Below, piece after piece: positions 1,491 to 49,159 of a stretch of DNA of 64,000 bases. A program made the position numbers and the translations under genes. The notes beneath the pieces are model-generated. The model was not told the DNA's origin and did no database searches. It was given only the letters and a program-made list of their open reading frames with translations. The stretch is from IMG/VR virus record IMGVR_UViG_3300019762_000005, positions 1 to 64,000 of that record; one strand, 5' to 3'. The DNA comes from a virus. How positions within the stretch are numbered: the stretch's first letter is position 1; every line of letters starts with the position of its first letter.

Positions 1491-3122
1491 TTATCCTCTT
1501 TTATAATTCTTCATAAATTCTGGATTCTGCATAATCAAGAAAGCTTCTTCGGCATTCTTAGCATAGCCCATTTGTACAAGCTCGTTTGCAGTTGCTTTGT
1601 TAAATCTGTTCTGAGCATAGGTATTAGCTATTTGCTGACCTTGTAATGCTGCAGCTCCTAGATGAGACTCCTTAGCTGCCACAGAAGCTTGATTCGTTTC
1701 ATCAACTCTGAATTGACGTTGAGCATTCAAGTTGTCAACATTTAGCTGATTCCCGATATTGAATTGGTCTGCACCCATTTGTCTTTGAGCGTCAATGTTC
1801 TCTTTTTGCACTAATGCTGCTGAGTCAGCTCTCTGCTTATTAACTTGAGCGTTTGCAATGTTCGACAAGTATGAGCCTGAAGAACCAGCACTTGCTGAAG
1901 CTATAGCATCACGTTGAGCGTTGAAAGTCTCCACATTTTTAGCTATGAGCGGATTGATATTTACCTCTGGAGCTTTCAACTTCCCAACTGATGTTTGATA
2001 ATCTTGAGCTCTTAATTTGTCTGCAGGTTTTAATCCCTGTACTAAATTGTACGCCAATGGAGCGTAAGCACCTACATTTTCGATTCCTTTGAGTAAAGGC
2101 TCGGTATTTCCAAGATCTCCACCGTTAGCGTACATCTTGTCCATATTCCCTCCGTAAGCATAAGGTTGACCTTGAGGATGAGTTGCTCCAGCCATCATTG
2201 ATCCATCTGGCATTTGATGTTGCGGTTGTTGCGGTTGAGGCATCTCTACTCTTTTAAAAGCTTCTTGTGCTTCTATAAGTCGCTTCATTTCTTCCTTCTT
2301 TGAGTTAGCATCTATACGATCACCTTTTCTCATGGAATACTTTTTATCTAGCTCTTTAGAATAGTCTGAAAATGACTTTCCTACAAACTTCTCTGGAATC
2401 TTAAACTCTCCTGCTAATTGTTTATTGATAAGTATCCTGTCAGAAAACACATAATTCTCTGGAGTGTACTCAGTCTCACCTTGTTCAACAGAATTTCCGT
2501 TACCCATAGGTACTCCTCCTAAAGGATTTTGTTCGTGTAAACCTCCAGCGTCAAAAGATACAAGATCTTCCATACCTCCAGCTCCTTGTTGAGACATTCC
2601 TCCACCCATAGCAAACTGCCCTCCTTGACCTACGTTTGTAATAACGCTTGTCGGTTGATACAACCTTTGTTGTTCTAGGCTTAGAGATTTGTTTTGTTTT
2701 TCTTGATTGGCTAGATTTAAACTTTCTAGTTCTTTGGACTGTTGGTTCTCAGCATGAGCTCCAAGTCCTGCAGCTAATCCGCCAAGAACAGCTCCACCAG
2801 CAATACCCCAAGGCCCTAAAGCTGCGCCTGCACTCGCTCCAGAAATAGCTCCTTGACCAAAACTACCAATAAGGTTAGCGTTGTTCTTGTCCATACCTCC
2901 ACCATAAGCTAGTTGCTGTAAAGGCATTCTGTTAATTTCAGGCATCGCGCCCATTTGAGGCAAAGCTAAAGTGTCAAGCCCTCCTTGCATTACATCTATA
3001 TTTATAGGAGCAATAAGAGGAAAATCTTGATCCTCAGCTGGTATTCCAGTGTAAACTTTCTTTTTCTTCTTATTCTTGTCTCCTGGACCTCCTCTGTAGA
3101 TACCGTTTAAATTGTTAGCCAT
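1491..3122 (-). CDS. Gly/Gln/Ala-rich virion protein, candidate ejected cargo protein
   Basis: 543 aa. The N-terminus is basic and low-complexity. A Gly/Ala-rich stretch near residues 90-120 (GQGAISGASAGAALGPWG) resembles the glycine-zipper segments of phage proteins that insert into membranes. The middle has recurring YGG-x-MDK motifs, and the C-terminal half is Gln/Ala/Asn-rich and helical (many NAQ/NVDNLNAQRQ turns). It lies between the 1417-aa tail protein and another large helical protein. In crAss-like phages a cargo protein follows the muzzle protein, so cargo or ejection is the best guess. A TATATTTGC element sits three bases before the ATG. Confidence 0.75.
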   Translation of the reverse strand: MANNLNGIYRGGPGDKNKKKKKVYTGIPAEDQDFPLIAPINIDVMQGGLDTLALPQMGAMPEINRMPLQQLAYGGGMDKNNANLIGSFGQGAISGASAGAALGPWGIAGGAVLGGLAAGLGAHAENQQSKELESLNLANQEKQNKSLSLEQQRLYQPTSVITNVGQGGQFAMGGGMSQQGAGGMEDLVSFDAGGLHEQNPLGGVPMGNGNSVEQGETEYTPENYVFSDRILINKQLAGEFKIPEKFVGKSFSDYSKELDKKYSMRKGDRIDANSKKEEMKRLIEAQEAFKRVEMPQPQQPQHQMPDGSMMAGATHPQGQPYAYGGNMDKMYANGGDLGNTEPLLKGIENVGAYAPLAYNLVQGLKPADKLRAQDYQTSVGKLKAPEVNINPLIAKNVETFNAQRDAIASASAGSSGSYLSNIANAQVNKQRADSAALVQKENIDAQRQMGADQFNIGNQLNVDNLNAQRQFRVDETNQASVAAKESHLGAAALQGQQIANTYAQNRFNKATANELVQMGYAKNAEEAFLIMQNPEFMKNYKRG

Positions 3123-3125
3123 GTT

Positions 3126-3134
3126 GCAAATATA
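3126..3134 (-). promoter_or_regulatory. Bacteroidota-type -7 element, 3 nt from start codon
   Basis: On the minus strand the sequence reads TATATTTGC-AAC-ATG, an exact TAnnTTTG match followed by the start of the 543-aa gene. The spacing leaves no room for a 5' leader, so a transcript from here would be leaderless. No good TTG -33 box is seen at 17-23 bases upstream. Confidence 0.5.
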
Positions 3135-6100: not shown

Positions 6101-7395
6101 TTTGGACTTTCACCTCCAAGCTGATTATCCAATCTAAACCTGTATCTTCGATGCGAGGTTGACCAGTCATTTATAGTTCCAGTAGGATTCGATCCGTTTG
6201 CTCTTCCTGAATCGTCATTGTATGGATTGCTATACAAAGCTTCACGAGCAGTAAGTCCATGAGTCGCTTGCATGAATGTTTGATGACTTGCAGTTGGCAC
6301 ACCACCAAAGGCGTATCTCAATGTTACAAAGTCATCAGTATCTATACAAGTCGGTTCGAAGCAGTCCTCTTTAATATTTGATGCTAACAGGATATTGTCT
6401 TTTACTTCAAATGTTTTGTTAGTGTGAAAAGGATAGAAGTTCTGAACGTAATCAGCAAAAGTTATTGCTATCGCATTCGATTCATTACCAGAGTCAGTAA
6501 CTGTATAGTCTGTTCCTCCGTCAACATTTACCGTATCAATCTGATGTATAACAGGAGCATTTCCGTAAGTATCCTTAAAGATTCTTATCAGAGTAAGTGT
6601 ACTGTAATTACTCACATTAATAGTTGACAAATCAATATCTACTTGTATCGCCTTTCCAGTATTAGTACCTCTTACACTACCTTCTATATCCGAAGTGTTG
6701 GTGTTGTCAGTACCCTGGTATAGGGGTATAAGCTTTGATGCATGAGCAATGATAGTTTGCTTCCCGTCATCACTAAGTAATCTATAGGCGTACTGATATA
6801 CACCTGCAGCTAAGTTACCTCCTCCGATAATGTTTGTTAATACAGGGTTCAATAGAGTAGCATCTGGATGTATGTCTAAGTCGCTTGGAGTTATACCTCC
6901 ATAAGAAGTTGGTCCAGTGTAAGCACCAGTACCAAAATTCGGATCTGAAATATTAATAGATCGAGTAGCTTCGTTGTAGTCAGAAAACACTACCCTTCTA
7001 GTACACTCATTTTCCCATCTACCTACAGCTTCTATTGGGTGAAAAGCTGAGAAGTTCAAGTCTGGATGGTCGTACACTAGATTCAGAGTCGCTCCACAAT
7101 CAGTATCGTAGTCAACTCTGTAGATGTACCCATGTCCTCCGACTTGTGTATCTACGGTAGATGTGAAAAGAATAATCTGCTCTCGTATATGTGCAGATCC
7201 TATAATTTTCTCATTAGTATTTGGAAGAGTAATATTCAAACTATTACCTCTAAAGTTTATGACAGAATGGTTTGAATCACCATCTGTAGTAATAACTTTA
7301 ATATCCTCTGCGTGATAATAAGTAGAATTCTTTACTGAATTAACAGAAGAATCCTTATCCATTCCTCCATTGAATGTATTAATAGTTTGTTGCAT
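3142..7395 (-). CDS. 1417-aa tail protein, candidate muzzle/tail stabilisation protein
   Basis: The largest complete gene in the window. It is Asn-, Thr-, Gly- and Tyr-rich with long beta-type segments and no signal peptide or membrane helix. The N-terminus (MQQTINTFNGGMDKDSS) resembles the start of large phage tail-tip proteins from Bacteroidota phages. It includes Cys-rich spots (CSCPKTQD) and a repeated RVDYD/YSEVDRN character consistent with a beta-propeller or sandwich architecture. It follows the 252-aa ring-like protein and precedes the Gln/Ala-rich proteins, which is the muzzle position in crAss-like virions. The function is inferred from size and order; structure prediction would decide it. 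Confidence 0.75.
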   Translation of the reverse strand: MQQTINTFNGGMDKDSSVNSVKNSTYYHAEDIKVITTDGDSNHSVINFRGNSLNITLPNTNEKIIGSAHIREQIILFTSTVDTQVGGHGYIYRVDYDTDCGATLNLVYDHPDLNFSAFHPIEAVGRWENECTRRVVFSDYNEATRSINISDPNFGTGAYTGPTSYGGITPSDLDIHPDATLLNPVLTNIIGGGNLAAGVYQYAYRLLSDDGKQTIIAHASKLIPLYQGTDNTNTSDIEGSVRGTNTGKAIQVDIDLSTINVSNYSTLTLIRIFKDTYGNAPVIHQIDTVNVDGGTDYTVTDSGNESNAIAITFADYVQNFYPFHTNKTFEVKDNILLASNIKEDCFEPTCIDTDDFVTLRYAFGGVPTASHQTFMQATHGLTAREALYSNPYNDDSGRANGSNPTGTINDWSTSHRRYRFRLDNQLGGESPNGYVKYTFKNEEFLLDDGLNSQFGSTPFGDGTFNISSEYTHVRKRHDNFASSYIAGHKTGYKRGEIYRFGIVFFSKKGTASFVYYIGDIRMPSVTNAPITEVDAFGNVKGFTLGVDFEIALPACLTAQISGYKIVRVDRNVQNSTKLYQGVGVKYYTHGGVNFTPPSIGSRFTMSSPNNYNGGTSNSDMISFFSPEQTYNAFTSGFVDGNDVIRSVGLYNNISAEDVASGGASTTPGENPANPGYIGGQEVVDKTRVAGGLPGFAGVDNTAIITGFVRTGGGQGDFALQNVNTQNFRNYGIYGAGGLAVDSSDYTQGAFQGTNLTLTLNHQGANVFSTPVAGGVANTAYVPTANPGNFTRNILEYQRYVTEQYGGTGPEKVASNVFIPCTHLLRNGATTTTVFGGDIYVGYFDFLRLFWDSFAQTRGLSANVTDDNDSYFEVAMIPVESRINLELTHGNTYNKGNSFDHDDDGNPDGYRRVETGGTEGDMFLYNTVYSEVDRNVTYFPKPIEFSDCSCPKTQDVRTFISDAKINGETVDSWSKFRTNNYLDVDTKYGPINRLLNLNDEIYYLQDRGFGKFLINERALVVASDGVSTELGTGQGLRDYGYISTKHGCIHQWGALATDNSIWYFDATHRKMMRFTGGGNGPISDLKGFHGFFNRTLHQDVLLTKSDGGDNPLLDKGVHCTYDTKEKIVVYTFLGVEKRSNGDTSSTKPILAGTTLNPGEHIVIDGQLVQYTGNTTQTFNAGFTWQQYLDDSAITNPPYLVNRRTGYTMAFNEMNAAFNSFYKFRPNIYVNNNGTIFSPNPENNTQVYRHGCGEHGVYYDNDPVESMISIVVNERSDYNKILRFIEFNSKVNMLHDKGTFYDEDFNGVVNPLIESSLRNETISAVRVYNDNQDTGKVDLSQTRQIRGVTVNKYIERRFDKWRLKIPRDNQLTDNRPSHSNVGKSRMRSTYFVVEFYFQNNNNKTFKMDRVLSYFDFQMF

Positions 7396-8962: not shown

Positions 8963-9661
8963 TTAAGCTTTTACGTCTTGTGAATCATTCATTTCATCCT
9001 TTCCAGTCAGTTGCTTTCTCATCATCTGCTCTACTATTATAGGTTTCATGTACTCCCACATCCACATATTTAAAGGATATCCTTCTTCGTAGTTCTCACA
9101 AACAACAGTTGGATCTAAAGACCCGCATTTATTGAACCTCATAACCTCTAAAGGATCTTCAAATACTCCTCTACACTTGATCTTCTCAATCATTAAGAAT
9201 CTTTCGTCAAGAGAATACATATACAGCCTCCTATTGTAAAGAAACACGTAAGTTTGAGCCTTTCCATATAGGGGCTTAGCTAGAAACTCTATCCTTTTGT
9301 AATTTACAAAGTTAAACCTTTTAGCTATTATATCTACAGGTCCTATATCAGTCAGTGCTTTAGAGCTATAAAACTCTATCGAGTTAGGTATGATTTCTTT
9401 AGACCTCAATATTTTACAACCTACAGGAATCACTTCTCCACAACATTCCGCAGAATTAACAACTTCCATTTCTATACACCTTAAGTCCTGTATGACGTTT
9501 GGGTCAATACTTCTTTTGTTCTTATTGTATTCGTTACGCATCCATAAAACACGTTGTTGATTAATAAGATCTACTTGATAGTCTCTGGAAAATGTGGTCT
9601 CCACCTGATTGATATTTAATGCTTCATCAAGTTGAGACGTTAATGTGTCTATTGTAACCAT
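8963..9661 (-). CDS. Tail/connector structural protein candidate
   Basis: 232 aa. The N-terminal helix region (TLTSQLDEALNINQ) is followed by a mostly beta middle (VDIIAKRFNFVNYKRIEFL) and a helical Met/Trp-rich C-terminus (MWMWEYMKPIIVEQMMRKQ). It sits beside the IHF-like and ring-like genes, where crAss-like phages encode conserved tail-barrel proteins. The pair of Cys in SAECCGEV has no clear metal-site partners. The start is the ATG at 9661, three bases after a TATATTTG promoter-like element. Assignment is positional only. Confidence 0.65.
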   Translation of the reverse strand: MVTIDTLTSQLDEALNINQVETTFSRDYQVDLINQQRVLWMRNEYNKNKRSIDPNVIQDLRCIEMEVVNSAECCGEVIPVGCKILRSKEIIPNSIEFYSSKALTDIGPVDIIAKRFNFVNYKRIEFLAKPLYGKAQTYVFLYNRRLYMYSLDERFLMIEKIKCRGVFEDPLEVMRFNKCGSLDPTVVCENYEEGYPLNMWMWEYMKPIIVEQMMRKQLTGKDEMNDSQDVKA

Positions 9662-9664
9662 ACG

Positions 9665-9673
9665 TCAAATATA
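9665..9673 (-). promoter_or_regulatory. -7 element 3 nt from start codon of 232-aa late gene
   Basis: The minus strand reads TATATTTGA-CGT-ATG, with the same three-base spacing to the ATG as at 3126-3134 and 18183-18191. No TTG -33 box is obvious. The recurrence of the geometry is the main support. Confidence 0.45.
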
Positions 9674-14364: not shown

Positions 14365-14373
14365 GCAAATATA
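14365..14373 (-). promoter_or_regulatory. Promoter -7 element for the lysis operon
   Basis: The minus strand reads TATATTTGC followed by 17 AT-rich bases and the ATG of the holin-like gene. It matches TAnnTTTG exactly. No clear TTG -33 box lies 17-23 bases upstream. It is the first such element upstream of the lysis genes, in a 30-base intergenic gap. Confidence 0.55.
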
Positions 14374-17150: not shown

Positions 17151-18179
17151 TTATGAAATTATATTTCCATCAGAAACTCTTCTGAAGTTTGTTCCGTCAC
17201 CCACAGCAATAGTATGTCCTCCTGACTCATCTGTTACTACTATAACACTACCATTTCTAGCAGTTAAAGCTAAAGCTGTAGCTACAGTAAATACGTTATT
17301 CAATTGGAATTGACCGTCTCTATGAACAGTTGTTTTTACAGCTCCGTCTATTAACACTTGTTGTTCTACTGTACCATCTGTATTAGATACAGCTTTAATC
17401 TCATTAGTAGTAGACATCCTAGTAGCTCCTGTCCAATACTCAGAATCCATCCTTATAGTAGAGGTCTTCTGGAGATTGGTTACTGAAGAAGCATCGTTTA
17501 AAAGAAATATTGTAGTGTCGTCTACCTGCTTCTGTATAGTAGCAAAAGTATATGCATTAGTAGCGTCTCTTATGTCAAACTTACTACTTCTAGTAGCTAG
17601 ATATGTAGAGTTTGTAAAGTTAGAATCTCTAAGTATTGTAGTATCTATCTTTAAGTACCAATTTATAGGAGCTGTTATAGCTGAAGTTACCAATGATGCA
17701 TTCCCGAAAGAAGCATTAGTAGAGGTAGAAAAAGCACCTGTAACTGATAAAGCAGCTCCATTTATTTTTGCATGCCCCTCACTAGGTCCTATTGACAATC
17801 CTCCAGTTGAACCTGAAGCATAGAAATGTGATCTTCCAACACTATTCATATTGAAGTAGTTGTCCTTAGTCTCGTCTCCTACTTTAAATACGTGTTGACC
17901 TGCTTCTGCGAATATTTCAAATTTGTGAGTAGTAGGTGCAGTTCCAACTCCTACTCTATTAGTATTTGCATCTACAAGCAGGTCTCCTGAGATTGAAGTT
18001 AATCCAGATGCACCTCCACTTCTAGGATCTATAAAAGAAACTCCAGCAGTATCCTGTATTCTGTCTCCATTAGAAACAATTATATGTTGACCTCCAGTAA
18101 AGTTTCCAATATCTAGAGTCTCGTCAAGGTTCTCTCCTCCTCCTTGAGGAGTTCTTATTTCGGTTGAAGTATTCGCCAT
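17151..18179 (-). CDS. Tail fibre / receptor-binding protein
   Basis: 342 aa from the ATG at 18179; an upstream in-frame start at 18209 lies within a terminator-promoter region and is unlikely. The sequence has the usual fibre motif NTNRVGVGTAPTTHKFEI (residues about 70-90) found in shafts and knobs of Bacteroidota phage and bacterial fibre proteins, followed by Gly/Ser/Thr-rich strands. It ends in a domain with NGSVIVVTDESGGHTIAVG, a common fibre C-terminus. It opens a transcription unit that continues into the SGNH hydrolase. Confidence 0.8.
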   Translation of the reverse strand: MANTSTEIRTPQGGGENLDETLDIGNFTGGQHIIVSNGDRIQDTAGVSFIDPRSGGASGLTSISGDLLVDANTNRVGVGTAPTTHKFEIFAEAGQHVFKVGDETKDNYFNMNSVGRSHFYASGSTGGLSIGPSEGHAKINGAALSVTGAFSTSTNASFGNASLVTSAITAPINWYLKIDTTILRDSNFTNSTYLATRSSKFDIRDATNAYTFATIQKQVDDTTIFLLNDASSVTNLQKTSTIRMDSEYWTGATRMSTTNEIKAVSNTDGTVEQQVLIDGAVKTTVHRDGQFQLNNVFTVATALALTARNGSVIVVTDESGGHTIAVGDGTNFRRVSDGNIIS

Positions 18180-18182
18180 ATT

Positions 18183-18191
18183 GCAAATATA
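18183..18191 (-). promoter_or_regulatory. -7 element 3 nt from start codon of fibre gene
   Basis: The minus strand reads TATATTTGC-AAT-ATG, directly after the U-tract of a terminator. It has the same geometry as the elements at 3126 and 9665. With the usual distance from -7 element to start of transcription, the mRNA would begin at or inside the ATG. Confidence 0.55.
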
Positions 18192-18192
18192 T

Positions 18193-18222
18193 AAAAAAAG
18201 AGGACACATTTTTATCTCCTCT
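18193..18222 (-). terminator. Intrinsic terminator between fibre transcription units
   Basis: On the minus strand AGAGGA, a 12-base loop and TCCTCT form a 6-bp stem followed by seven U. It lies 18 bases after the stop of the 104-aa gene and just before the promoter of the fibre gene. Confidence 0.75.
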
Positions 18223-19686: not shown

Positions 19687-20049
19687 TTAGTATTTTCTTT
19701 TATCGGTTGGTTCGGTGTAGTCTAATACTACCTCTGTTACAGTTGTGTCTGCGATTACGATTCCTTTTATAACTCTATGGAAATCTCCTTGACAGTTCTT
19801 AAATAATACAGAACCTCTAGGATGCATTATGTTAGATGCTGGTATTACACGGATGTTACCTCCTGTGTTAATCCACATCGTACAATTATATGGTAACGGT
19901 ATGAATAGACCGGTTGAATCTACTGGGTAAATCTGACCTGACTCAAGCGTTAAGCCTATTCCAGATATAGTTCCTCCTTCACATCTCGTTGGTTGAAAAT
20001 TAACTGGTGTTCCAGAGAATCCTCGTATTTTTGCAAAAATGTTTTTCAT
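19687..20049 (-). CDS. Small virion protein, unknown
   Basis: 120 aa, beta-rich, with a hydrophobic core pattern (LTLESGQIYPVDSTGLFIPL and NTGGNIRVIPASNIMHPRG). It opens the transcription unit after the terminator at 20063-20102. A degenerate promoter-like element (TAAATTCG) lies just before the ATG. No catalytic motif is seen. A decoration or fibre base protein is a reasonable guess. Confidence 0.6.
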   Translation of the reverse strand: MKNIFAKIRGFSGTPVNFQPTRCEGGTISGIGLTLESGQIYPVDSTGLFIPLPYNCTMWINTGGNIRVIPASNIMHPRGSVLFKNCQGDFHRVIKGIVIADTTVTEVVLDYTEPTDKRKY

Positions 20050-20062
20050 ATTACGAATTTAT

Positions 20063-20102
20063 AAAAAAAAAGGATGGGATCGACAGCTAACCCCACCCTT
20101 TT
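20063..20102 (-). terminator. Intrinsic terminator after the 420-aa capsid-region gene
   Basis: On the minus strand AAAAGGGTGGG pairs with CCCATCCTTTT (11 bp, one G-U) around a 13-base loop and is followed by a run of U. It ends the head-gene transcript and precedes the fibre block. Confidence 0.85.
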
Positions 20103-20133
20103 CAAGATTTTTAAAATTGTATGTTACTACGTC

Positions 20134-21396
20134 TTACTCGTTTAAGCTTGTAGGAACAAGTCCTCTTGCAGCTAAAGCAGCGTTAGTAATAAACTGTCCT
20201 AGCAATACTCCACCTCCATTCGCTCCAACTAAGGTATCAGGATTAGTGTTTGCTAATTCGAAGTAAACCAATACGCTTCCTTTTGCATTCTGAGTAGACA
20301 ATAAGTCTCTGTGCTCTTCTCTCCAACGAAGTTGTAAAACTCCGTAAGTAGCTAAAGCTACAACGTTTTGATCTCTAGCAGTTGGAGGAGTAGACAACAT
20401 GTGATTCTGTCCTTCGAATCCATGAGATAAGTACTCATTCATCGCCACATCTTCGTACTCTCCTACACCTTCGTAAGAAGCAGCAACAACTGCTGGTCTA
20501 ACTAACGAGTCAGAGAAGTAAACTTCAAAACGATTCGTGTAGTAATCTCTGAATGTGTTAACATCAAAGTAGTTTCTGATTCCTACGAATCTTAATCCGT
20601 AGTTTGTTGCTGGCGTACCAAAGGCATCATCAACTGCAACTACAGCAGCACTGTTCCCTCTATAAGGAGACTTCAATGTTATAGTGTTATTCACTAAATC
20701 AATACTGTCGATGATGTAAGAATCACCTAAGATTTGAATCTCATTACCTACTGCAGGAGCACCAGTGATAGCACCTGCGAATTGTACCAATGTAGAATTG
20801 AACGCTACAGATGCATTACCTAATGCATTGGCAATTATAGTAGCATCTGAAGTTATAGAAACAGACAAATAGTTTTGCTCTCCTAATCCTATTCCTAAAG
20901 ATTCTAAAGCTAAGTTTCTACCTAACTGTTCAGCTAATCCGTGAGCAACTTCTAACTGAGAAGCAGTACTATCAGTTTTGTATTGACCTGCTATAGCAGT
21001 TTGAGGAAACTTTCTGTTGGCAGCATCATTGTCGCGCTTGTTTATTCTTACGTGGTAAGAAGTATTGTTACCTGACGGTAAAGAACCTGCTGTACCATCC
21101 CATCCAAGAACAACTTCATGTTGAACTGCTGGTCTGTAATTCTTCCAAGAAACTTCAGTCTTCTCAACATCCATGATGTCCTTAAAGATTAAATCCTTGT
21201 TAGGCCCTTGTGATTGAACAATCCTTACTGGACCTGTTACAGGATAACCAGCGATAACCTTGTTCTCTAAGTTCGTTAATATTACCTCTCCAGCATTGGT
21301 GTTGAATGGAGTAACTATAGTTCCAACCGCAAGTCCTGAAGAAGTTACGTTTCCTGCGATGAACGTATAAGTATTATGATCTTGTTTTCTTAACAT
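20134..21396 (-). CDS. Abundant-looking virion protein of the head/tail region, unknown
   Basis: 420 aa. The first 130 residues are beta-rich (NTYTFIAGNVTSSGLAVGT), and then come helical and beta segments. The middle includes an insertion-like beta domain (APAVGNEIQILGDSYIIDSI) and the C-terminal half is helical with a Gly-rich end (ANGGGVLLGQFITNAALAAR). It is followed by a strong terminator, as expected for a highly expressed structural gene. It could be an auxiliary capsid, head-fibre anchor or tail-tube protein; its order after the capsid and connector does not decide. Confidence 0.65.
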   Translation of the reverse strand: MLRKQDHNTYTFIAGNVTSSGLAVGTIVTPFNTNAGEVILTNLENKVIAGYPVTGPVRIVQSQGPNKDLIFKDIMDVEKTEVSWKNYRPAVQHEVVLGWDGTAGSLPSGNNTSYHVRINKRDNDAANRKFPQTAIAGQYKTDSTASQLEVAHGLAEQLGRNLALESLGIGLGEQNYLSVSITSDATIIANALGNASVAFNSTLVQFAGAITGAPAVGNEIQILGDSYIIDSIDLVNNTITLKSPYRGNSAAVVAVDDAFGTPATNYGLRFVGIRNYFDVNTFRDYYTNRFEVYFSDSLVRPAVVAASYEGVGEYEDVAMNEYLSHGFEGQNHMLSTPPTARDQNVVALATYGVLQLRWREEHRDLLSTQNAKGSVLVYFELANTNPDTLVGANGGGVLLGQFITNAALAARGLVPTSLNE

Positions 21397-21430
21397 TTTT
21401 CTATGTTTTTTTTATTATTAATTTTTAACG

Positions 21431-22168
21431 TTACTCCAGTGTGTTTATTGGAGGTATGTACTCTTGCTTTTGTTCTTTTATTATTCCTAGAACTAAATCT
21501 CTAGCAATGTCTATTATAATCTCCTGAGCAGTCTCATTCAATATACAATTTCTTTGGTTAGTCAGTATTGTTCTATCAACAATTATCTGACTAGCTTTAC
21601 TGAGATAGTTAATCCTATATCCAGTAATAGTAAACGTTCCATCACTAACAAGTTGATGCCTTCTAGCTGTACCAGAGTTAGTTATATTGCTTGTTTGTCT
21701 TGAGTACTGCATTCTCCAAACCAAAGGTTCTAAACCGTCTAGTTTTGGCTTCTTGTACTTGTTACGTTTCAAGCGTCTAAACTCGTGATGAGCTGTAGGT
21801 TTAACGTCAATCACTAAAGGATTTCCATCGCAATCAGTTCTATTAACAGTAGCGTCTTCATATATGGTGTACATGAGATCTTCTGGTAAGTCGAAAAATC
21901 TACCATCTCTAAGTACCCCAGTCTGACTAGCAGACACAGGGCAATTAAAGAAGTTTATCAATTCTGCTATAGATTGGTTCTTAGCTTCAGTCTCTTCGAA
22001 ACCTTGACCCTTTCTATTGTTTAAATGGTCGTACTGTTGTTTGATGAAATAATTCTGAGCATTAGTCAAAAAGCTTGACAACTCGAAGTCCTCATACCCT
22101 GGCGAACCATTGGTATGACCTCTATCGAGCAAAAGCTCTAATCCATCTGCCATTTCATTACTAGTCAT
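21431..22168 (-). CDS. Head-tail connector ring protein candidate
   Basis: 245 aa. The helical N-terminus (MADGLELLLDRGHTN ... LTNAQNYFIKQQYDHL) is followed by a beta segment (RDGRFFDLPEDLMYTIYEDA) and a helical C-terminus (AQEIIIDIARDLVLGIIKEQ). The LPEDLMY turn and overall layout resemble adaptor proteins that sit below the portal in short-tailed phages. It starts one base after the stop of the 345-aa gene. The assignment is by layout and position, downstream of the capsid gene. Confidence 0.6.
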   Translation of the reverse strand: MTSNEMADGLELLLDRGHTNGSPGYEDFELSSFLTNAQNYFIKQQYDHLNNRKGQGFEETEAKNQSIAELINFFNCPVSASQTGVLRDGRFFDLPEDLMYTIYEDATVNRTDCDGNPLVIDVKPTAHHEFRRLKRNKYKKPKLDGLEPLVWRMQYSRQTSNITNSGTARRHQLVSDGTFTITGYRINYLSKASQIIVDRTILTNQRNCILNETAQEIIIDIARDLVLGIIKEQKQEYIPPINTLE

Positions 22169-22169
22169 C

Positions 22170-23207
22170 TTATCTTGTACGGTTTATTCTGTTTTCAATT
22201 TGCATTTTTAATTCTTGGTTCTCAGGATCTCTTAAGAAGTATGCCATATCTCTAAGCTCTCCTACTTCCTTCCCGTTATCCAAGGCATAAATATTACCAG
22301 CTACTTTCTTGATAGCTTCAACTCTTAAAGCATCATAAATGAATACCTTGTCATCGAACAACTCATCTTCAACGATTTCTAAGAACTTGTTATGGTCTCT
22401 TTCAAGAGTTGCCATTACTTTGTCCTTTAAGTAATCAGTGTTGTATCTAGCAGGTATATTATTACCCATAGACTTGATGAAGTTAACCATCTTACTATCT
22501 GACCCCATTAGCTCAGCAAGTAAAGCGTATGCTTTAGCTTTGCTCTTAGAATCTTCAAGTCTTTGTGAAAGAACTTTATTCTCATCGACTATGGCGAAGT
22601 CAAAGTTTCCGTCAAATCTAGTCTCCCAAGAACTAGCGATAGCCGCTTGCTTCTTAAGTATCATATAGTGTACCATGTGAAGAGGGTCTGAAAGATCTAG
22701 TCTTAAACCTTCTCTAGTAACGGTAACTCTTCCTCTAGCGTCTGTTTTCCAAAAATTCTTTATACCACTAATTTCATTAGGAACTGTCATAGTTCCCATG
22801 TCACAACCCATTATCTTTTCGAAGAATCCTTGTTGTGTCAATTTTTCATTAGGAAATTGGACAGTATAGAACTGTTCAAAGTTGTCAAATATCTTGGACA
22901 AACCACCTTGTCTGAAGAATGGTAACTGAAAGCTACGTTTAGCTCTCTTTAATATGAAAGGTTCGTTATCTACATCTTTACCATTAACTAGTAATGTAGA
23001 CCACTTACCTGTTCCAGCAACGGGAACAATCTTTACGATTCTGTTCTCTAAAAAGTTTTTCAACTTCTTCACCTTTTTTATCGGCTCTTTAGCTACGATT
23101 GGTGCTGCTGGTGTACTCTCTGGAGTTGGGGCAGAAGCAACTACCTTCTCAGTAGTTGCCTTTGCTTTGTTATCTCCTTTATCTAAACTATCTTTCTGTG
23201 CTGTCAT
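22170..23207 (-). CDS. Capsid-region structural/assembly protein, unknown
   Basis: 345 aa. Residues 1-50 are low-complexity (Ala, Pro, Thr, Lys), and then comes a beta/alpha domain (RIVKIVPVAGTGKWSTLLVNG). The phrase GTGKWS only superficially resembles a P-loop: it lacks the hydrophobic strand and GK[ST] helix context. The C-terminal 150 residues are helical (SKAKAYALLAELMGSDSKM). It lies 13 bases after the capsid gene. Conserved proteins of this size follow the capsid gene in crAss-like phages; the role is unknown. Confidence 0.65.
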   Translation of the reverse strand: MTAQKDSLDKGDNKAKATTEKVVASAPTPESTPAAPIVAKEPIKKVKKLKNFLENRIVKIVPVAGTGKWSTLLVNGKDVDNEPFILKRAKRSFQLPFFRQGGLSKIFDNFEQFYTVQFPNEKLTQQGFFEKIMGCDMGTMTVPNEISGIKNFWKTDARGRVTVTREGLRLDLSDPLHMVHYMILKKQAAIASSWETRFDGNFDFAIVDENKVLSQRLEDSKSKAKAYALLAELMGSDSKMVNFIKSMGNNIPARYNTDYLKDKVMATLERDHNKFLEIVEDELFDDKVFIYDALRVEAIKKVAGNIYALDNGKEVGELRDMAYFLRDPENQELKMQIENRINRTR

Positions 23208-23219
23208 TTGTTTATTTTT

Positions 23220-24740
23220 TTAGAAATTAGAAACTGCTAATTGCATGTCAATTATTTTCGTTGGATCTTCGATCATCATTCCTCCTGCCTTCATAAAGTG
23301 CACTTGGTATCCATCTACTGACGATACTGCGAATGAACTCGCTGAGTTCTTCTTAGTACCTGGAGAGAACGGATCTCTCATCCCTGGTAAGTACTTCCAG
23401 ATTAGGTCATCATAACCTTTGGCAGTCGTTCTGTAAACACCTGCTTCTTCTCCGAATCCCATTGTAATCATTCTATGTGATTCAATAGTTCCTTTTCCAT
23501 CTGGATGTCTACGAGAGAAGTGAGTTTCATCATCGAAGAAGTCGATAATCTCAACAGTTAAACGAATACCATTGTAGTACTCATACTCGTTGAATTGGTA
23601 TCCATATCCTAACGTGTTCTTAGAACCTAAATTACTAGGACTAGTAGACTTACTAGCGAACCCGTGATTGATGATAGTCCATCTACTTGAAGCTTTAGCC
23701 TCAATCTGCTTGTGGATTTCAATTGCTCCCCATTCACCAGTCATAACATGTACGTGACGTTTATCACGAGACATCTTACCAATAGACATATCCAGGATTA
23801 ACTCCATGTGGAAATCTAAATCGTAAGAGTTATAGTAGTGACGATTTGATGGTGCGATTTGCTCGAAGAAACCTGCACCTGCTTCAATAGCAAATTTAGT
23901 TTTATCGTCAAAGTTTAAGTACTTGTGGTCAGAACCCCAGTTACGCTTACCGTAAACTTGCATTCTCGCAAACATCTCTTCACATTGGTGATGAGCAACC
24001 ATATCTTGATAGTTGATCCATACCTTTTCTTGAATCTTTCCACCATCAGCAGAGAATCCAAATTCTAAAGGTTCGTTATCACCTTTGTTAATTACGTTAC
24101 CAGGAACTTCATACTCCATTCTCATTTGAGAAAGTCTGTTTTCCATTCTCCAAGGAGACGTAAATGTAGGCTTAGCACCTTGGTAAGATAACGTTGAAGG
24201 AGTAGCTCCATAGAATTTAGAGAAGCGAATACCTCTTACTAATTCTTGAACTGGAACGGCAATTCTTAAGTTTGCGTTCAATAACTCTACTTCATACTTG
24301 AACAAAGAATCTTCTCCGTAAGCACGCTTTACTAAAAAGTGGTAATCATCTACCTCTCCTTTTAATACGTTTGTTTCTTCGAAAAGCCCTTCTTTAAAGA
24401 CTAAGATGAAACGTCCTCTTTGAGCTCCTATCACTGCTGGGAAGTTCCCTGCTGATACTGACTCTCCAGTTAATGTTTCTGCATCCTCTAATGGAATGTT
24501 CTTTTCTTCTTGTCCTTTCAGCATCCACTGATAGAATCCGTTTTCTTGAGTAACCTCTTTTACAGGAAATCTTGATACAAACTCTCTAAGCTTACCAGAA
24601 AGGTTATTCTTATAGATGCTTCTAATAGCTGTATCAATTAACTCAGGCTGTTGTTGGTACAACGTATAAAAATGATTATCGGTAACTAAACCGTTGTAAT
24701 CAACTGCTTCATACATTTGTAATGGAAGTAATTTTGCCAT
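23220..24740 (-). CDS. Major capsid protein candidate
   Basis: 506 aa, a size typical of crAss-like major capsid proteins. The N-terminus (MAKLLPLQMYEAVDYNGLV) precedes a helix/strand mix. HK97-type elements are suggested by an extended acidic/aromatic loop region (GQEEKNIPLEDAETLTGES), a long spine-helix-like segment and beta strands (RLTVEIIDFFDDETHFS). It lies downstream of TerL, portal and an acidic scaffold-like gene, exactly the expected capsid slot. There is no signal or membrane segment. Structure prediction for an HK97 fold would confirm it. Confidence 0.8.
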   Translation of the reverse strand: MAKLLPLQMYEAVDYNGLVTDNHFYTLYQQQPELIDTAIRSIYKNNLSGKLREFVSRFPVKEVTQENGFYQWMLKGQEEKNIPLEDAETLTGESVSAGNFPAVIGAQRGRFILVFKEGLFEETNVLKGEVDDYHFLVKRAYGEDSLFKYEVELLNANLRIAVPVQELVRGIRFSKFYGATPSTLSYQGAKPTFTSPWRMENRLSQMRMEYEVPGNVINKGDNEPLEFGFSADGGKIQEKVWINYQDMVAHHQCEEMFARMQVYGKRNWGSDHKYLNFDDKTKFAIEAGAGFFEQIAPSNRHYYNSYDLDFHMELILDMSIGKMSRDKRHVHVMTGEWGAIEIHKQIEAKASSRWTIINHGFASKSTSPSNLGSKNTLGYGYQFNEYEYYNGIRLTVEIIDFFDDETHFSRRHPDGKGTIESHRMITMGFGEEAGVYRTTAKGYDDLIWKYLPGMRDPFSPGTKKNSASSFAVSSVDGYQVHFMKAGGMMIEDPTKIIDMQLAVSNF

Positions 24741-24785
24741 ACTGTGTTATTATTTGCTTTTTTTATTATTATTATTAACTATTCC

Positions 24786-25964
24786 TTACTTTGCTCCGAA
24801 TATCTTGCTAAGATTGCTAAGCTTATCCTCAACTGTCTTACTTTCATTCGGTTTGAATCCTTCTGCTGAATCAGAGCTATTTAGTAATGAATCTAATTCG
24901 CTAGAAGCTTTAGATTTCGATACCTTCATTAACTTACTGATGTCAGGAGTGAAGTCTCCATTTTTATCTTGTTTGAACACCCCTAAGACGTTCAAGTAAT
25001 TTATCAATGTTGCGAACCCTTCTGGATTCTTATTCTGTTTGTAGGCGATTTCAGTGAACTTTCTACCGTCTTCTCCAACGTGAACTGTTTCAGACATACT
25101 AGACTTAATCTTATCTCTAGTGACTTTGTTCAATGCTAAACCTTCAATGAAGTGATCTTTCTCATCAATCATTGTTGTTATCTTCTGAACAATTTCTTTT
25201 TGAGAATTTTCAAACTTTTCTTCAGCCAACTTCTTAGCATCTGCTTGTTGCTTTACAAAAGCGTTTGTCATCGTCTTTAAAGGTTCTACTGAACTTTTAG
25301 CTTTATCAGTCAATTTGTCTAACAATTTAGCATCGTCTACCATTTCAGTGATTTGATCGTCAGTTAATCCAGTTGCTTTCAAGTACTTTGTATATACTTG
25401 TTCAGCTACCTTTTCATCTTTAAGCTTATCATCTGTAATGTCTTCGTAGAATGCTAAATCTTTAGCTACGTTTATCGCTACACTTTCATCGTCAAACGAC
25501 GATTCTATTTCTAAGAACTTTTTCTTCGCACCAGAGAACTTGTCTCCATACGAACTTTCAAACTTTTTCTTCTTCTCCTCAAGAGTCTTTTCAACCAACT
25601 CTTTAAGATCATCAGCCGACTTAATCTCTCCTTCTTCAAATTCTCCAAGAGCTCCCATTTCTGCTAGTTCTTTTGCGAATACTGAATATTTGTTTTTAGC
25701 ACCTTCTCCTTCTTCTGGAGGTTTAGCCCCTTCTACAGGAGGAGTTCCTTCTGTAGGTGTATTTTCTGGAGCAGCATCTCTTTTTACTGGGGTTATCTCT
25801 ACGTAACCTTCAGGCTTAGTGTCTTCCTTGTTAGCTTCAGGTCCTTTCGGATCTTCTGTAGCTCCTGGAGCTTCCTCACCTTTATTCTTTAAATCTTCTA
25901 GTTGGCTTACTGGAACTATCTCTAGCCCTTCAAACAAACCATCATTCATGCTGTCAAAATCCAT
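24786..25964 (-). CDS. Acidic coiled-coil protein, scaffold candidate
   Basis: 392 aa, strongly acidic and Lys/Glu-rich. Residues 25-90 are Pro/Glu-rich and disordered (TPTEGTPPVEGAKPPEEGEG), and residues 110-290 are long helices (LVEKTLEEKKKKFESS). The C-terminal 40 aa form another short basic helix (EDKLSNLSKIFGAK), like capsid-binding tails of scaffolds. It lies between portal and capsid genes, the usual scaffold position. No protease motif is visible. The function is inferred from composition and location. Confidence 0.7.
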   Translation of the reverse strand: MDFDSMNDGLFEGLEIVPVSQLEDLKNKGEEAPGATEDPKGPEANKEDTKPEGYVEITPVKRDAAPENTPTEGTPPVEGAKPPEEGEGAKNKYSVFAKELAEMGALGEFEEGEIKSADDLKELVEKTLEEKKKKFESSYGDKFSGAKKKFLEIESSFDDESVAINVAKDLAFYEDITDDKLKDEKVAEQVYTKYLKATGLTDDQITEMVDDAKLLDKLTDKAKSSVEPLKTMTNAFVKQQADAKKLAEEKFENSQKEIVQKITTMIDEKDHFIEGLALNKVTRDKIKSSMSETVHVGEDGRKFTEIAYKQNKNPEGFATLINYLNVLGVFKQDKNGDFTPDISKLMKVSKSKASSELDSLLNSSDSAEGFKPNESKTVEDKLSNLSKIFGAK

Positions 25965-26045
25965 AACGTATTATTTGTTATAATACAATGTTACAAAAAT
26001 TATAACGTCCTCTAACATTCTTGTCATGACTCGTTATAATAATTA

Positions 26046-28457
26046 TCACTTCGTATTATTGCTGTTTGGCACATTTTTTTTCCTGTCTATTGCTTCCTGA
26101 GCTTTGTTGTGTCTTACATTCTCTTTCAGCGTATCTCTTTTTATCTCGTTGTCACTTATTACTTTTTGTCTCTCAAGCTCATTCTTACTTCTTTCAAGTC
26201 CATCATCTACACCATTACTGTTAGAATCTAATTTTCTTGATGAATCAATATCTTTCTGACCTACATTAGTATATAGTTCCTCTCTCTTGAAATCTAGTTC
26301 CTCTCTTTTTAGAGCCATCTCATCTTGATGCTTTTGAACTTCCCAATCTCTAGCTTCTTTTTTATCTTGAGCATCTAATTGTTGAGCTTGCTTAGCAACT
26401 TCGTTCTGTTCCATTTGCATCTTCTCATTACGCTCTCTCAATTCTTCAGCACTATTTTTTAACTTTCTGCTTAACTCTTGTACAGACTCAGATTGATACA
26501 TATCTATAATATCAGACAATTCTGCATTACCATTTTGTATCGCTGCATGAGCTAACTGTTTAAGATCTGCGAATAACTGAGCGTCACTTGTGCTATCTGA
26601 AAGATGCAGGTCAAATTCTGCAGATGGAAACTCATCTATCTGGTCCAAAAATACTTGCCCCATGTCATCTAACATGTAAGCACCGTTTTGAGGATTTGTT
26701 TTGTAGGCGAACTGACAAGCTTCAAGATACTTTTTAAGTACCCTTTTTACGAAGTTGTTTTGTATTGAGAACCATTTTTCAGTAATGTGAGACGATTGAT
26801 TAATCTCTCTCTCAACATTTCCAACAGCTTCATTGCTTCCAATAGCTCCTTCTCTTCCTGCTGATACACCAGTTATTCTACCCATAGTTTGTTCTATATG
26901 GAATAACTGATCGTTATACATTTGAATTTCTTTACCATCTCCACTTAAGTCGATAGTAGTTCCTGTTAATGTATTGAATGCACCTGCAGATTTACCTTGA
27001 GAAGGGCCTTTTAATATCTCATTTGTTGGGTCTAAGAACCCTAATTTGTTTACTGTTAAGTACTTAATCCAGTCTTCGGCTTCCCATCCTGAAGGTATCA
27101 TTGATGCGTTTATTAACGCTGCAGACCCTTTATGGGTAGCCAATGCAATCTCTCTTTTCCACCATAGAATATCATAGGCGTAGTCTAATGGCTTGGATAT
27201 ATCTGTTAAAGATGTAGCTCCTACTGTTCCGATATAGTTTGGAGTTACCAGTGATGGATTGACAATCGACCTACCTTGGAATGGAATTACTTCTCCTTTT
27301 ACATAGATGTCTTCTCCGATCACAGCTATCTTATGCCATTCACTTATCCATCTAACCGCTACAAGCTCTTCCCCAACAACGTCATCAAGAATGTAGTTTT
27401 CATTCCTGTAGTCGTACATTGCCTCTCCGTCTTCGTACCATTTAATATATTGTACCTTTCTTTTTCCTTTCCAAGAAACTCTCATTATCCTTATCAGGCC
27501 TTGATCGTTTACTGTCGCTCCAAAAGAATGTTGAGACTTTATCTGAGACCCTGGCACTATTTGAACACCGTCAGGACCTTGAGGTCCATATCTATCGAAT
27601 ACACTTTGATCTCCTCCGTAACCATAGCTACCTTGAGAACCTTCTGAGTATTTTTCAATTTTAGTTATATCTGCAGATGACAATTCATCATTATAATCAT
27701 CCAGTAACTTTCCTGGACCAGAGTACCCAAACTCTACAATTATCTCTGCATCTTCTATTTTCTTAGAATCTCCAGAACCCCATGTGTACATGTTTCTTGG
27801 GTCAACTCTTCTAATTACGGGCTTTCCTGCTAGAACATCTATGTAAACCATTTGCTCTGCTGAAACCAATAAATCTTCAAATTCTTCTTCGAATAAGAAA
27901 GCTAGGAACTGTTCCTTGTATTCTTTCTTTAATATTTTGTTAGCTGTAATCTCAAGTATGTCTTGGTAGTCGTACTTGATGTATTTTTGAAAAGCTTTGA
28001 TTTCTTTTTCCAGTTCTTCTTGATTAATAGACTCTCTAGTTATTTTGTCAATTATGAACTTTTCGAATTTCTTCTTGATGTCCTTTTCTTTACTGCTGCT
28101 ACCTTCCTTATCGTTTGCTGATAGGAAAGCTTTAAAGTCTTTCTTTCTTTTTATGTATTCACCTACAAGTAGGTTTATCTTAGAGTTCCCAATTCCTACG
28201 TGCTTAAATTGTGATGGTAATTTATCAAGACCTATGTCGTCTAAATCAATGTACTTTTTGAAATTGTTGATGTTTATCCTGTTCTCTCTCAAGTCAAAAT
28301 TCTCTTGTTTGTTCTCAAACATTTGTTTCAACCCACCACCATATATAAGAGACTTGGCAAACTCTGCGTTCTTTATGTACCAGTTCTTATTCTTTTTATT
28401 AGAGGCAATTTTCTGTGCTGGAAAAGTTGTTACTCTTTTATTGTGTTTGATTTCCAT
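26046..28457 (-). CDS. Portal protein
   Basis: 803 aa, close to the length of crAss-like portals. The first 160 residues are charged, then comes a clip/wing-like mixed region (VRWISEWHKIAVIGEDIYVKG), a beta segment, and the stem/crown helices (GNVEREINQSSHITEKWF). The C-terminal ~150 residues are a highly charged coiled coil (LREREMQMEQNEVAKQ-type, then DWEVQKHQDEMALKREEL) that could form the barrel reaching into the capsid. It starts 40 bases after TerL. The position between TerL and the scaffold supports the call. Confidence 0.8.
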   Translation of the reverse strand: MEIKHNKRVTTFPAQKIASNKKNKNWYIKNAEFAKSLIYGGGLKQMFENKQENFDLRENRININNFKKYIDLDDIGLDKLPSQFKHVGIGNSKINLLVGEYIKRKKDFKAFLSANDKEGSSSKEKDIKKKFEKFIIDKITRESINQEELEKEIKAFQKYIKYDYQDILEITANKILKKEYKEQFLAFLFEEEFEDLLVSAEQMVYIDVLAGKPVIRRVDPRNMYTWGSGDSKKIEDAEIIVEFGYSGPGKLLDDYNDELSSADITKIEKYSEGSQGSYGYGGDQSVFDRYGPQGPDGVQIVPGSQIKSQHSFGATVNDQGLIRIMRVSWKGKRKVQYIKWYEDGEAMYDYRNENYILDDVVGEELVAVRWISEWHKIAVIGEDIYVKGEVIPFQGRSIVNPSLVTPNYIGTVGATSLTDISKPLDYAYDILWWKREIALATHKGSAALINASMIPSGWEAEDWIKYLTVNKLGFLDPTNEILKGPSQGKSAGAFNTLTGTTIDLSGDGKEIQMYNDQLFHIEQTMGRITGVSAGREGAIGSNEAVGNVEREINQSSHITEKWFSIQNNFVKRVLKKYLEACQFAYKTNPQNGAYMLDDMGQVFLDQIDEFPSAEFDLHLSDSTSDAQLFADLKQLAHAAIQNGNAELSDIIDMYQSESVQELSRKLKNSAEELRERNEKMQMEQNEVAKQAQQLDAQDKKEARDWEVQKHQDEMALKREELDFKREELYTNVGQKDIDSSRKLDSNSNGVDDGLERSKNELERQKVISDNEIKRDTLKENVRHNKAQEAIDRKKNVPNSNNTK

Positions 28458-28496
28458 AGTCTTTGTAATTCTGTAAAAATACTAAAAATATCAATA

Positions 28497-31100
28497 CTAT
28501 TTAAGTATGCCCATTTTTTTAAAGTAGTTGCTCTGTAGGAAACTCTTTTCTACTTTGGTTGCTTCAGTCTTTATAGCTCTGTATTGAGTCTGGTCATGCC
28601 ACATTAACATACACATAGCTGATACCCTATCAAAGTTGGCATCTGGATTGTAAAGGATACATTCCTTAAGAAGTGCTGGGAACTTTATTGTACTTAACAT
28701 CCTAACGTCGCTACTCTTATTAATCTTCTCTAACATCCAAGATTTAAAGAATCTAAGACCAGTTTCATTTATAGGACCAGATGCATTTATACCTTTTGAA
28801 GTATTCGTTCCAGCTTTGTAGGTGTCTGTATTTCTAAGATGAGGAGGGGTTTCTGCTAGTAAGTATGTCTGCTTTCTGTTTTCGAAGTAAGTGTATAACC
28901 CTGGTAAATTCTTCTCATACATTAACGTACCATTGTAATATAGACATAATTTTCTACACATCTCGTAGAAGTCATTAGGATCATCTGTACGACCTGTATA
29001 TTCAGCAACTATTCTACGTGTGAATCTATTCATTACAAATACCGATGTTAGCGAGTCTGTTGATGATACTGCTTTATCAACTGTATCTCCTCCTAACAAG
29101 TAAGTTCCTGCTGGAACTTGTCCATCTACCTTTTGAGGCTTCTCTGAAATTTCTAATGCTCCAACTTTGTTTAGTGATTTCTTTGACAGTGGATAATCTC
29201 TAATTGGTTCTAATTCTGTGTCATTTTTAAACTCTACTTCTCCAGCTTCATTGAACTCCAGCTTACCAACAAAATTAGCATCTAACTCTGTACTACTGTA
29301 TTCTAATTCAGTAAGTGTGTCTTTAAGATCTGCTGCTGGAAAGAATCCTCCTTCAGACACTAAGAATATTTCTGACGGAATAAGAGGTCTGTTAATTATG
29401 AAGGAAAAGTACTTCTCTTTAGAAGATCTCTTCATTTCTTCCCTTCTGTCCTTCCAGTACTTCTCAGCCATAGTGAAGTTGGTTAACTTGTTTGGACCTT
29501 CTTTGAATCTGTTTACTGCCATTGATGCAGGAACGAAGTATCCAATCTTCTTGGATCTATTCTCCCATTGGTCGTGAAATGCTAAACAGTTGTAATCTTC
29601 TGGATTTTCAAATATCTTTTTAAGGTGAGTTACTGAGTTTCCTTTTACAAATCCTCCAGTACCAAACATATATACAGTTCCGTATTGTCTACCATCATCA
29701 GATACAGTATCTTCCAGTCCTCCAAGAACTTCCTCGATATTATTCATAAATCCAACTTCCTCAAGCGCAACCAGCGATGGTCTTGAACCTGCAGCTGCTA
29801 ATGGATCTTTCTCGAATGTCCTATGTATCAGCTTAGAAGCTGACTTTTTAGCCTCTACTGTTTGCTCTGCATTCTTGAACGAACCTTTGCTAGGAACATA
29901 AAGTGGAGACGGATAAAACTCTCCTCCAAACCATATTGATCCTGGTAGATTGTCTAATCCAATCGTAGCTTTACTTAGGAGCTCCATAGAATATTTGGCC
30001 TCTATAGCACCTACAAGAGTCTCTGATGCGAGTGGTGTTTTATTTCTTTTATTCTCCAAATAGAAGTCATAATCAATAGCTCCGTCAAACATCCAGTTAT
30101 GTCCAATCCATACTCCTGCATTGTATGATTTACCCGTATTGTGTTGAACTACATAGTCTGACTTTACAAACAAGTGATCCCCGTCAAGCTTGAATCCAAA
30201 AAACTCTCCTTTGCCTATGTACTCCATATCGAATGAAGATTCCTGCACATTGCTACGATTCGTTAACCCTTTTATCTTTATACTCGACTTATAGAGCTTT
30301 ATTGATTGCAACAAAGATTGATGTTTGAACACGATTTTGGTTCTGATATTTATGTGTTTTCCGTAGTTTGAAACCTGTAATTTATGGTTACTATTTGTTA
30401 CAAATTCATCAAATCCTCCTGTTGTAGGTTTTATCTTATACAGGTCATCTATTCCAGAGTGAGTCCATTGTACATTTCTAGGGCCTCCATCTGGACCCAT
30501 GACTACATCTCCTTTTACAATATCTTGCACAAGCTTTATAGTTCCATCGTACATGACAACCTCAGTATCTTTACCAAAGCAATCTCTACTCTCCAGATCA
30601 ATCACGTTCATTGCTGAATTCTTGTATTGAGGTTTACCCATGCTACCTTTAACATGAACCCTCCTTAAGTATTCTCTGGCTGTGACGTATTCCTTTCTTT
30701 GGCCGTTAGCTTTAAAAGCCTCTGGTACTCCTATCTTCAGCAACGCTTCGCTACCAAAATCCCGTACACCTTGCTCAAATCTAAAACAAGTCTCTTCTGT
30801 ATCTCCTTCAAATCCAGAGAACCCTCTAGCTTCAGCAAGGTTCAAATGCTTATCCCATTCAAGATCACGAATGTACGGCCTACCTAATATCTTTCCGATA
30901 GATTTTTCTGAAGACATTTTGATATGCCAAACGTTAGCAAAAGTATATAATGTTCCTGGCATCCACTTTCCGCCAACCCACATTCCTTCTATACATTTAC
31001 GCTTGACATCTCCCCAATAAGCCAACCTTTCGTACCGTTGAGATACAGGATTGTAACTAGGATGTTCCTTCGTTATAAAGTTCTGAGTGTTATATAGCAT
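28497..31100 (-). CDS. terL: Terminase large subunit, interrupted by an intein
   Basis: 867 aa in total, 719 aa after removal of a 148-residue intein (residues 174-321). The spliced Walker A would read LESRD-TGKSYNAG, a deviant P-loop as in many TerL proteins. Walker B follows at RPSLVALEEVGF (Glu-Glu catalytic pair). The C-terminal nuclease domain has the first Asp in LLGGDTVDKA and later acidic residues (NPDANFDRVSAM). It packages DNA into the procapsid. It overlaps the small zinc-protein gene by 11 bases and leads into the portal. Splicing is required for activity because the intein splits the ATP-binding loop. Confidence 0.92.
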   Translation of the reverse strand: MLYNTQNFITKEHPSYNPVSQRYERLAYWGDVKRKCIEGMWVGGKWMPGTLYTFANVWHIKMSSEKSIGKILGRPYIRDLEWDKHLNLAEARGFSGFEGDTEETCFRFEQGVRDFGSEALLKIGVPEAFKANGQRKEYVTAREYLRRVHVKGSMGKPQYKNSAMNVIDLESRDCFGKDTEVVMYDGTIKLVQDIVKGDVVMGPDGGPRNVQWTHSGIDDLYKIKPTTGGFDEFVTNSNHKLQVSNYGKHINIRTKIVFKHQSLLQSIKLYKSSIKIKGLTNRSNVQESSFDMEYIGKGEFFGFKLDGDHLFVKSDYVVQHNTGKSYNAGVWIGHNWMFDGAIDYDFYLENKRNKTPLASETLVGAIEAKYSMELLSKATIGLDNLPGSIWFGGEFYPSPLYVPSKGSFKNAEQTVEAKKSASKLIHRTFEKDPLAAAGSRPSLVALEEVGFMNNIEEVLGGLEDTVSDDGRQYGTVYMFGTGGFVKGNSVTHLKKIFENPEDYNCLAFHDQWENRSKKIGYFVPASMAVNRFKEGPNKLTNFTMAEKYWKDRREEMKRSSKEKYFSFIINRPLIPSEIFLVSEGGFFPAADLKDTLTELEYSSTELDANFVGKLEFNEAGEVEFKNDTELEPIRDYPLSKKSLNKVGALEISEKPQKVDGQVPAGTYLLGGDTVDKAVSSTDSLTSVFVMNRFTRRIVAEYTGRTDDPNDFYEMCRKLCLYYNGTLMYEKNLPGLYTYFENRKQTYLLAETPPHLRNTDTYKAGTNTSKGINASGPINETGLRFFKSWMLEKINKSSDVRMLSTIKFPALLKECILYNPDANFDRVSAMCMLMWHDQTQYRAIKTEATKVEKSFLQSNYFKKMGILK
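30138..30581 (-). other. Mini-intein in TerL (148 aa)
   Basis: It begins with Cys174 (CFGKDTEVVMYDG, block A), with block B in FDEFVTNSNHKLQV (TxxH-like, here TNSNH) and ends with block F/G FGFKLDGDHLFVKSDYVVQHN, here seen as FFGFKLDGDHLF and VVQHN, followed by Thr as +1 extein residue. The catalytic Cys1, block-B His and terminal His-Asn are all present, so it should splice. There is no LAGLIDADG endonuclease, only a short linker of about 35 residues between the splicing halves. It sits immediately before T-G-K-S of the P-loop. Confidence 0.93.
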
Positions 31101-39731: not shown

Positions 39732-39842
39732 AGTCAAGTGGCGGAGTTGGTTTCAACGCTCCACTAAATAAAGTGGCAACTGAGTAGTTTAATTATAGCT
39801 AATTAAATAAAAGGTACGCAGGTTCGAATCCTGCCTTGACTA
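39732..39842 (+). tRNA. tRNA-like element of unusual centre (111 nt)
   Basis: The acceptor stem AGTCAAG/CTTGACT is 7 bp and perfect. A D-arm GCG ... TTGGT ... CGC and a T-arm GCAGG-TTCGAAT-CCTGC are both canonical. Between them are a hairpin CCACT-AAATAA-AGTGG with a 6-base loop lacking a U33-type anticodon loop, and a second 8-bp hairpin TTTAATTA-TAGC-TAATTAAA. The length is about 25 nt more than a long-variable-arm tRNA, and no anticodon can be assigned. It could be an interrupted, degenerate or tRNA-mimicking RNA. No CCA is encoded. Confidence 0.5.
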
Positions 39843-42874: not shown

Positions 42875-42947
42875 GTGTCGTTAGTAGAGTGGCCTAGCAC
42901 GTCTTGTGTAAAAACGAGGAAACATTGGTTCGAATCCAATACGGCAT
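42875..42947 (+). tRNA. Probable tRNA or tRNA-like RNA, anticodon unclear
   Basis: Acceptor stem GTGTCGT/ACGGCAT (7 bp, two G-U) and T-arm ATTGG-TTCGAAT-CCAAT are good. The D region has AGTGG but a poor stem. The anticodon stem TCTTG/CGAGG encloses an 8-base loop (TGTAAAAA) rather than 7, so no anticodon can be named safely. The length of 73 fits a tRNA. It could be a divergent tRNA with an expanded loop. Confidence 0.5.
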
Positions 42948-42963
42948 TCAATTATTATTAAAA

Positions 42964-49151: not shown

Positions 49152-49159
49152 TATATTTG
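49152..49159 (+). promoter_or_regulatory. Rightward promoter TTG-N20-TATATTTG
   Basis: TATATTTG with TTG 20 bases upstream, ten bases before the ATG at 49169. This is the clearest sigma-A type promoter on the plus strand. Confidence 0.6.

Follow-up and report, generated by a model that had tools for sequence, protein, structure and literature searches.

The closest described counterparts of the sequences discussed here are the promoters of the Bacteroidota primary sigma factor (sigma-ABfr / sigma-A), which consist of a -33 TTTG and a -7 TAnnTTTG element (PMC6847099, PMC9723704). The Flavobacterium -7 element occupies positions -12 to -5, with transcription starting 4 or 5 nt later (PMC6847099, PMC9723704), and the -33 element of F. 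johnsoniae is reported to be weak or not evident. Leaderless messages exist in this phylum, making up 5.5% of mapped mRNAs in F. psychrophilum (PMC9723704), and about 3.7% of 5' UTRs in B. thetaiotaomicron are under 10 nt (PMC7366714); their geometry is predicted to be the same as that proposed below. These host messages were mapped by RNA-seq, whereas the phage messages are predicted from sequence, belong to late genes and have a conserved spacing. Most leaders in Bacteroidota hosts exceed 10 nt, with a median of 24-32 nt, whereas the phage class would sit exactly on the AUG. Leaderless transcripts that start at the AUG, as predicted here, have been described as frequent in other phages (PMC5312081). 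No report of leaderless mRNAs in crAss-like phages was found in the literature searched. Phage phiKZ reportedly produces leaderless transcripts, its messages starting at the AUG. phiKZ is reported to transcribe with its own multisubunit RNA polymerase (PMC10612078), whereas a host-type box is implied for the present phage.

The DNA comes from record IMGVR_UViG_3300019762_000005 (92,675 bases), of which the window, meaning the whole 64,000-nt stretch analysed, covers positions 1 to 64,000. The virus is a crAss-like phage (Crassvirales) that encodes capsid, muzzle, ring and cargo proteins, all of the crAss type. Among window proteins, the major head protein (gene at 23220-24740) has a PHROG match at 5e-64, and the muzzle protein (gene at 3142-7395) matches crAss_MUZ at 4e-145. 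ORFs were picked by a simple length rule. The first 35 kb or so hold the late genes, on the minus strand, and are followed by plus-strand genes; the host is presumably a member of the Bacteroidota. A DNA-level search for close phage relatives returned none, and a generic sigma-70 and terminator scan was set aside as uninformative for this phylum. The record's two ends look like repeats of one another, suggesting that the genome is complete and either circularly permuted or terminally redundant.

Three late genes on the minus strand begin with the arrangement TATATTTG-N4-ATG. The first instance, TATATTTG-CAAC-ATG at 3134-3120 (box 3127..3134), leads into the ATG at 3122 of the cargo protein 1 gene (crAss_CARG1, 1491..3122; Pfam PF25725, E 2e-21), which comes after the muzzle gene. 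The second, TATATTTG-ACGT-ATG at 9673-9659 (box 9666..9673), leads into the ATG at 9661 of the ring protein 2 gene (CrAss_Ring_2, 8963..9661; Pfam PF25702, E 9e-23). The third, TATATTTG-CAAT-ATG at 18191-18177 (box 18184..18191), leads into the ATG at 18179 of a 342-aa gene (17151..18179) with no assigned function, whose product matched no family in Pfam or PHROG. An earlier note on this DNA had described -7 elements three bases from these start codons, all at late virion genes. The three sites are indeed present on the minus strand with identical spacing, but the gap measured against TAnnTTTG is 4 nt, the base after the G having been counted in the note as part of the box, and the virion assignment is supported for the genes at 3122 and 9661 only. 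TATATTTG satisfies the -7 consensus (TAnnTTTG, or TAHHTTTG) at all three sites, as in Bacteroidota sigma-A promoters. Unlike those promoters, with their -33 element, none of the three sites has a -33 TTG at 19-21 nt upstream of the box; the 3122 site has a TTTG 24 nt upstream, outside the usual -33 distance.

Given the published start distance of 4-5 nt, a 4-nt gap would make the A of the AUG the +1 position, and this geometry predicts a start on the start codon at all three window sites. In the reading that we consider likely, the host RNA polymerase, carrying its primary sigma factor, would recognise the three boxes as the -7 elements of late promoters, and the genes for cargo protein 1 and ring protein 2, together with the 18179 gene, would be translated from leaderless mRNAs whose spacing class is held at 4 nt in relatives. 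Counting against leaderless messages are the missing -33 TTG, the rarity of such mRNAs in the studied hosts and the boxless state of most late genes.

The distance-4 arrangement is used by only a minority of late genes in this phage: of about 40 late starts, three have it with certainty and a fourth has it in degenerate form. The degenerate box, TAAATTCG (20054..20061, minus strand), has one mismatch to TAnnTTTG and lies 4 nt before the ATG at 20049, making it a candidate fourth case. Other copies of TATATTTG are followed by longer distances. For instance, the copy at 14366..14373 (minus strand) lies 18 nt before the ATG at 14347 of the holin gene, and that at record positions 90974-90981 (minus strand) lies 19 nt before the ATG of a late gene of 3618 aa (80098-90954), probably, to judge by its position, the virion RNA polymerase region. 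On the plus strand, a copy at 49152..49159 lies 9 nt before the ATG at 49169 and has a TTG 20 nt upstream. A scan of the late gene starts found no box of their own at most of them, so any leaderless mode is partial in this phage. The suggestion of a deliberate late-gene translation mode was thus too broad for this genome, although a distance-4 class does exist.

Two terminator-like hairpins on the minus strand directly precede boxes. One, with a T7 tract (18192..18222; -10.1 kcal/mol, z -2.2), runs through that tract directly into the 18179 box; a longer version of the 18179 ORF, beginning at the ATG at 18209, would have its start within this hairpin. The other, stronger and with a T9 tract (20063..20100; -16.0 kcal/mol, z -3.4), lies directly before the degenerate box. 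Their T tracts abut the -7-like box of the next gene, forming fused terminator-promoter units. With terminators so placed, the genes at 18179 and 20049 would both depend on their own promoters, and for 18179 the reliance would be greater than at 9661 and 3122, where upstream read-through may also yield leadered copies.

The same box recurs before the same virion genes in phi14:2, FpV4 and crAss001. Ring protein 2 has a box-to-ATG distance of 4 nt in the window phage, 5 nt in the relatives L006 and L007 (47% amino acid identity, with the same box as at 9661), 35 nt in crAss001 and 40 nt in cr85_1. For cargo protein 1, the distances are 4 nt in the window phage, 5 in phi14:2, 19 in crAss001, 18 in cr85_1 and 55 in Dulem virus 41. 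This implies that the promoter stays in place as the leader varies in length. The leaders at these genes measure about 14-40 nt or more in crAss001 and further phages, mostly from the gut; such phages would have retained promoters for these virion genes while placing a leader between promoter and gene. Sites at distances 4-6 make up 9 of 24 in the window phage, L006, L007, phi14:2 and FpV4 versus 0 of 37 in eleven crAss-like phages that came from the gut, from sewage or from termite symbionts (Fisher P=8e-5, although independence of the sites is incomplete, L006 and L007 being near relatives). The seven diverged orthologues of FpV4 gp24, a protein with a weak PD-(D/E)XK nuclease match under the Pfam cut-off, all hold the box at distance 4, even as the middle of the box and the spacer letters differ; clustering at the family level adds one member at distance 32. 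Among leadered portal orthologues the distance varies freely. In phi14:2, the box precedes the AUGs of g110, g070 and the portal gene by 4, 5 and 6 nt. Two other searches contributed nothing: the muzzle protein query returned no match among viral contigs, and a ring-2 family alignment was dropped as a query, its conservation being insufficient.

To place these cases in a distribution, box-to-start distances were compiled for 294 crAss-like late-region loci (4.0 Mb), comprising the window phage, phi14:2, FpV4 and IMG/VR contigs gathered by their capsid, portal or ring-2 proteins. TAHHTTTG occurs at 231 non-redundant sites in the 60 nt before gene starts, versus 18-72 for permuted motifs. A spike of 22 non-redundant sites, in 11 gene families, stands at exactly 4 nt, the neighbouring distances of 3, 5, 6 and 7 having 2, 5, 3 and 5 sites. 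Separate from this spike is a broad leadered mode at about 15-30 nt, and few cases fall at 0-3. Counted by gene family, 11 at distance 4 compare with a neighbour mean of 2.75 (P=1.4e-4), and by site P=1e-10; both values come from a neighbouring-bin comparison calculated after the spike had been seen, distance 4 itself being a prior hypothesis. Most of those at distance 2 precede capsid genes, and the ones in phi14:2 relatives were discounted because an in-frame ATG just upstream (MSVGKF in phi14:2) places the box within the gene. The start codons at distance 4 are 19 ATG, 0 GTG, 1 TTG and 0 CTG. A TTG at 19-21 nt upstream of the box accompanies 9 of the 22 distance-4 sites and 19 of 49 and 29 of 73 leadered sites, versus a local background of 0.01-0.03. 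The relatives thus share a weak -33 TTG located some 20 nt before the box, and its similar share in both groups suggests that the short-distance boxes are promoters of the same type. Together with the consensus and the 4-nt distance, the spike, which includes phi14:2 and FpV4, lends strong comparative support to the earlier suggestion that transcripts would start at the ATG, as a prediction from geometry. Within the crAss-like set, the window phage would share with its phi14:2 and FpV4 relatives a minority late-promoter class held at exactly 4 nt.

The most serious alternative is that the boxes are real promoters whose 4-nt spacing is a by-product of tight packing between stop and start codons, with leaderless messages tolerated and most translation coming from read-through polycistronic mRNA that includes upstream sequence. 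Gaps of only 19 nt before 3122 and 18 nt before 9661 fit this account, as do the leaders at the same genes in gut phages. So does the portal gene, which shows that a leader can be gained or lost between relatives: in L021 only CAAC separates the box from the ATG (distance 4), whereas L015, L016 and L019, which share this box and CAAC, start at an ATG some 15 nt farther downstream. Packing alone, however, does not predict the drop from 22 sites at distance 4 to 5 and 3 at distances 5 and 6, nor a spacing frozen in all seven gp24 orthologues, and at 18179 a terminator precedes the box in a gap of 61 nt. We consider this explanation unlikely. Compactness may contribute, but exact 4-nt spacing recurs too often for compactness alone.

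A second alternative, that the distance-4 ATGs are misread and that the true start codons lie further downstream, behind ordinary leaders, is very unlikely. For the 3122 and 18179 proteins, close homologues against which the N-termini could be confirmed are few or absent. The ring-2 N-termini, on the other hand, line up from the first residues in the window phage, L006, phi14:2 and crAss001, RefSeq annotates FpV4 gp24 as starting at exactly the distance-4 ATG, and a spike at exactly this distance would be unexpected if these ATGs were not starts. That AT-rich upstream sequence made three look-alike boxes at one distance by chance is highly improbable: although enrichment in the window is not significant with one mismatch allowed and TAHHTTTG-N4-ATG without the gene-start requirement is marginal (3 in the window versus 0.94, with 5 of 100 shuffles reaching 3), TAHHTTTG stands at distance 4 from three of the 40 minus-strand late gene starts versus 0.02 when the upstream sequences are shuffled (none of 3000 shuffles reaches 3), and it is independently conserved in relatives. 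Counting the exact motif at fixed spacing against chance, as the earlier note had proposed, gives 3 occurrences of TATATTTG-N4-ATG in the window versus 0.04 expected from dinucleotide shuffles (0 of 100 reach 3), none elsewhere in the whole record, and no occurrence of the backward-read control pattern throughout the record.

Bacterial genomes provide a further comparison. Three Flavobacteriaceae genomes of 2.7-5.7 Mb hold 7-8 copies each of the exact pattern (backward control 2-8), so that its density is much higher in the phage. A fourth gives 31 versus 7 for the backward control, a count inflated by repeated TATATTTGGTCAATG. In genome G003 (which contains L334, Polaribacter filamentus), exact TATATTTGGTCAATG recurs many times, and a dispersed repeat therefore carries the motif there.

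The sharing of exact 4-nt spacing by many distant relatives points to a conserved route to leader-free late messages, as far as sequence can suggest one. To our knowledge, Bacteroidota are without Shine-Dalgarno leaders, and translation start in their phages is poorly known. A conserved leaderless late-promoter class would provide messages defined by their sequence, some of them from genes of the cultured phages phi14:2 and FpV4, for testing leaderless initiation in Bacteroidota. As a practical rule, TAHHTTTG 4 nt before an ATG likely marks both a promoter and the true start codon. A bolder proposal, possible if doubtful, is that environmental crAss-like phages of Bacteroidota have a dedicated class of leaderless late mRNAs, marked by the 4-nt spacing and initiated distinctly by the ribosome directly on the 5' AUG, through which selected virion genes could be expressed separately when leadered initiation is limiting.

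Several other features of the record deserve mention. An Rfam tRNA match on the plus strand at 39732-39842 spans 111 nt versus a 71-position model, lacks an ARAGORN call and may contain an intron or other insertion; no anticodon is assigned to a second tRNA, located at 42875-42948. A 10.4-kb contig (L014, IMGVR_UViG_3300019764_000053) is 100% identical to window positions 19745-30185 and represents the same virus or the same assembly source. Finally, the terminase-like large protein (867 aa; 28497-31100, minus strand) has a Hint/intein domain at about residues 174-320, which appears to split the Walker A motif (SRD-C...HN-TGKS).
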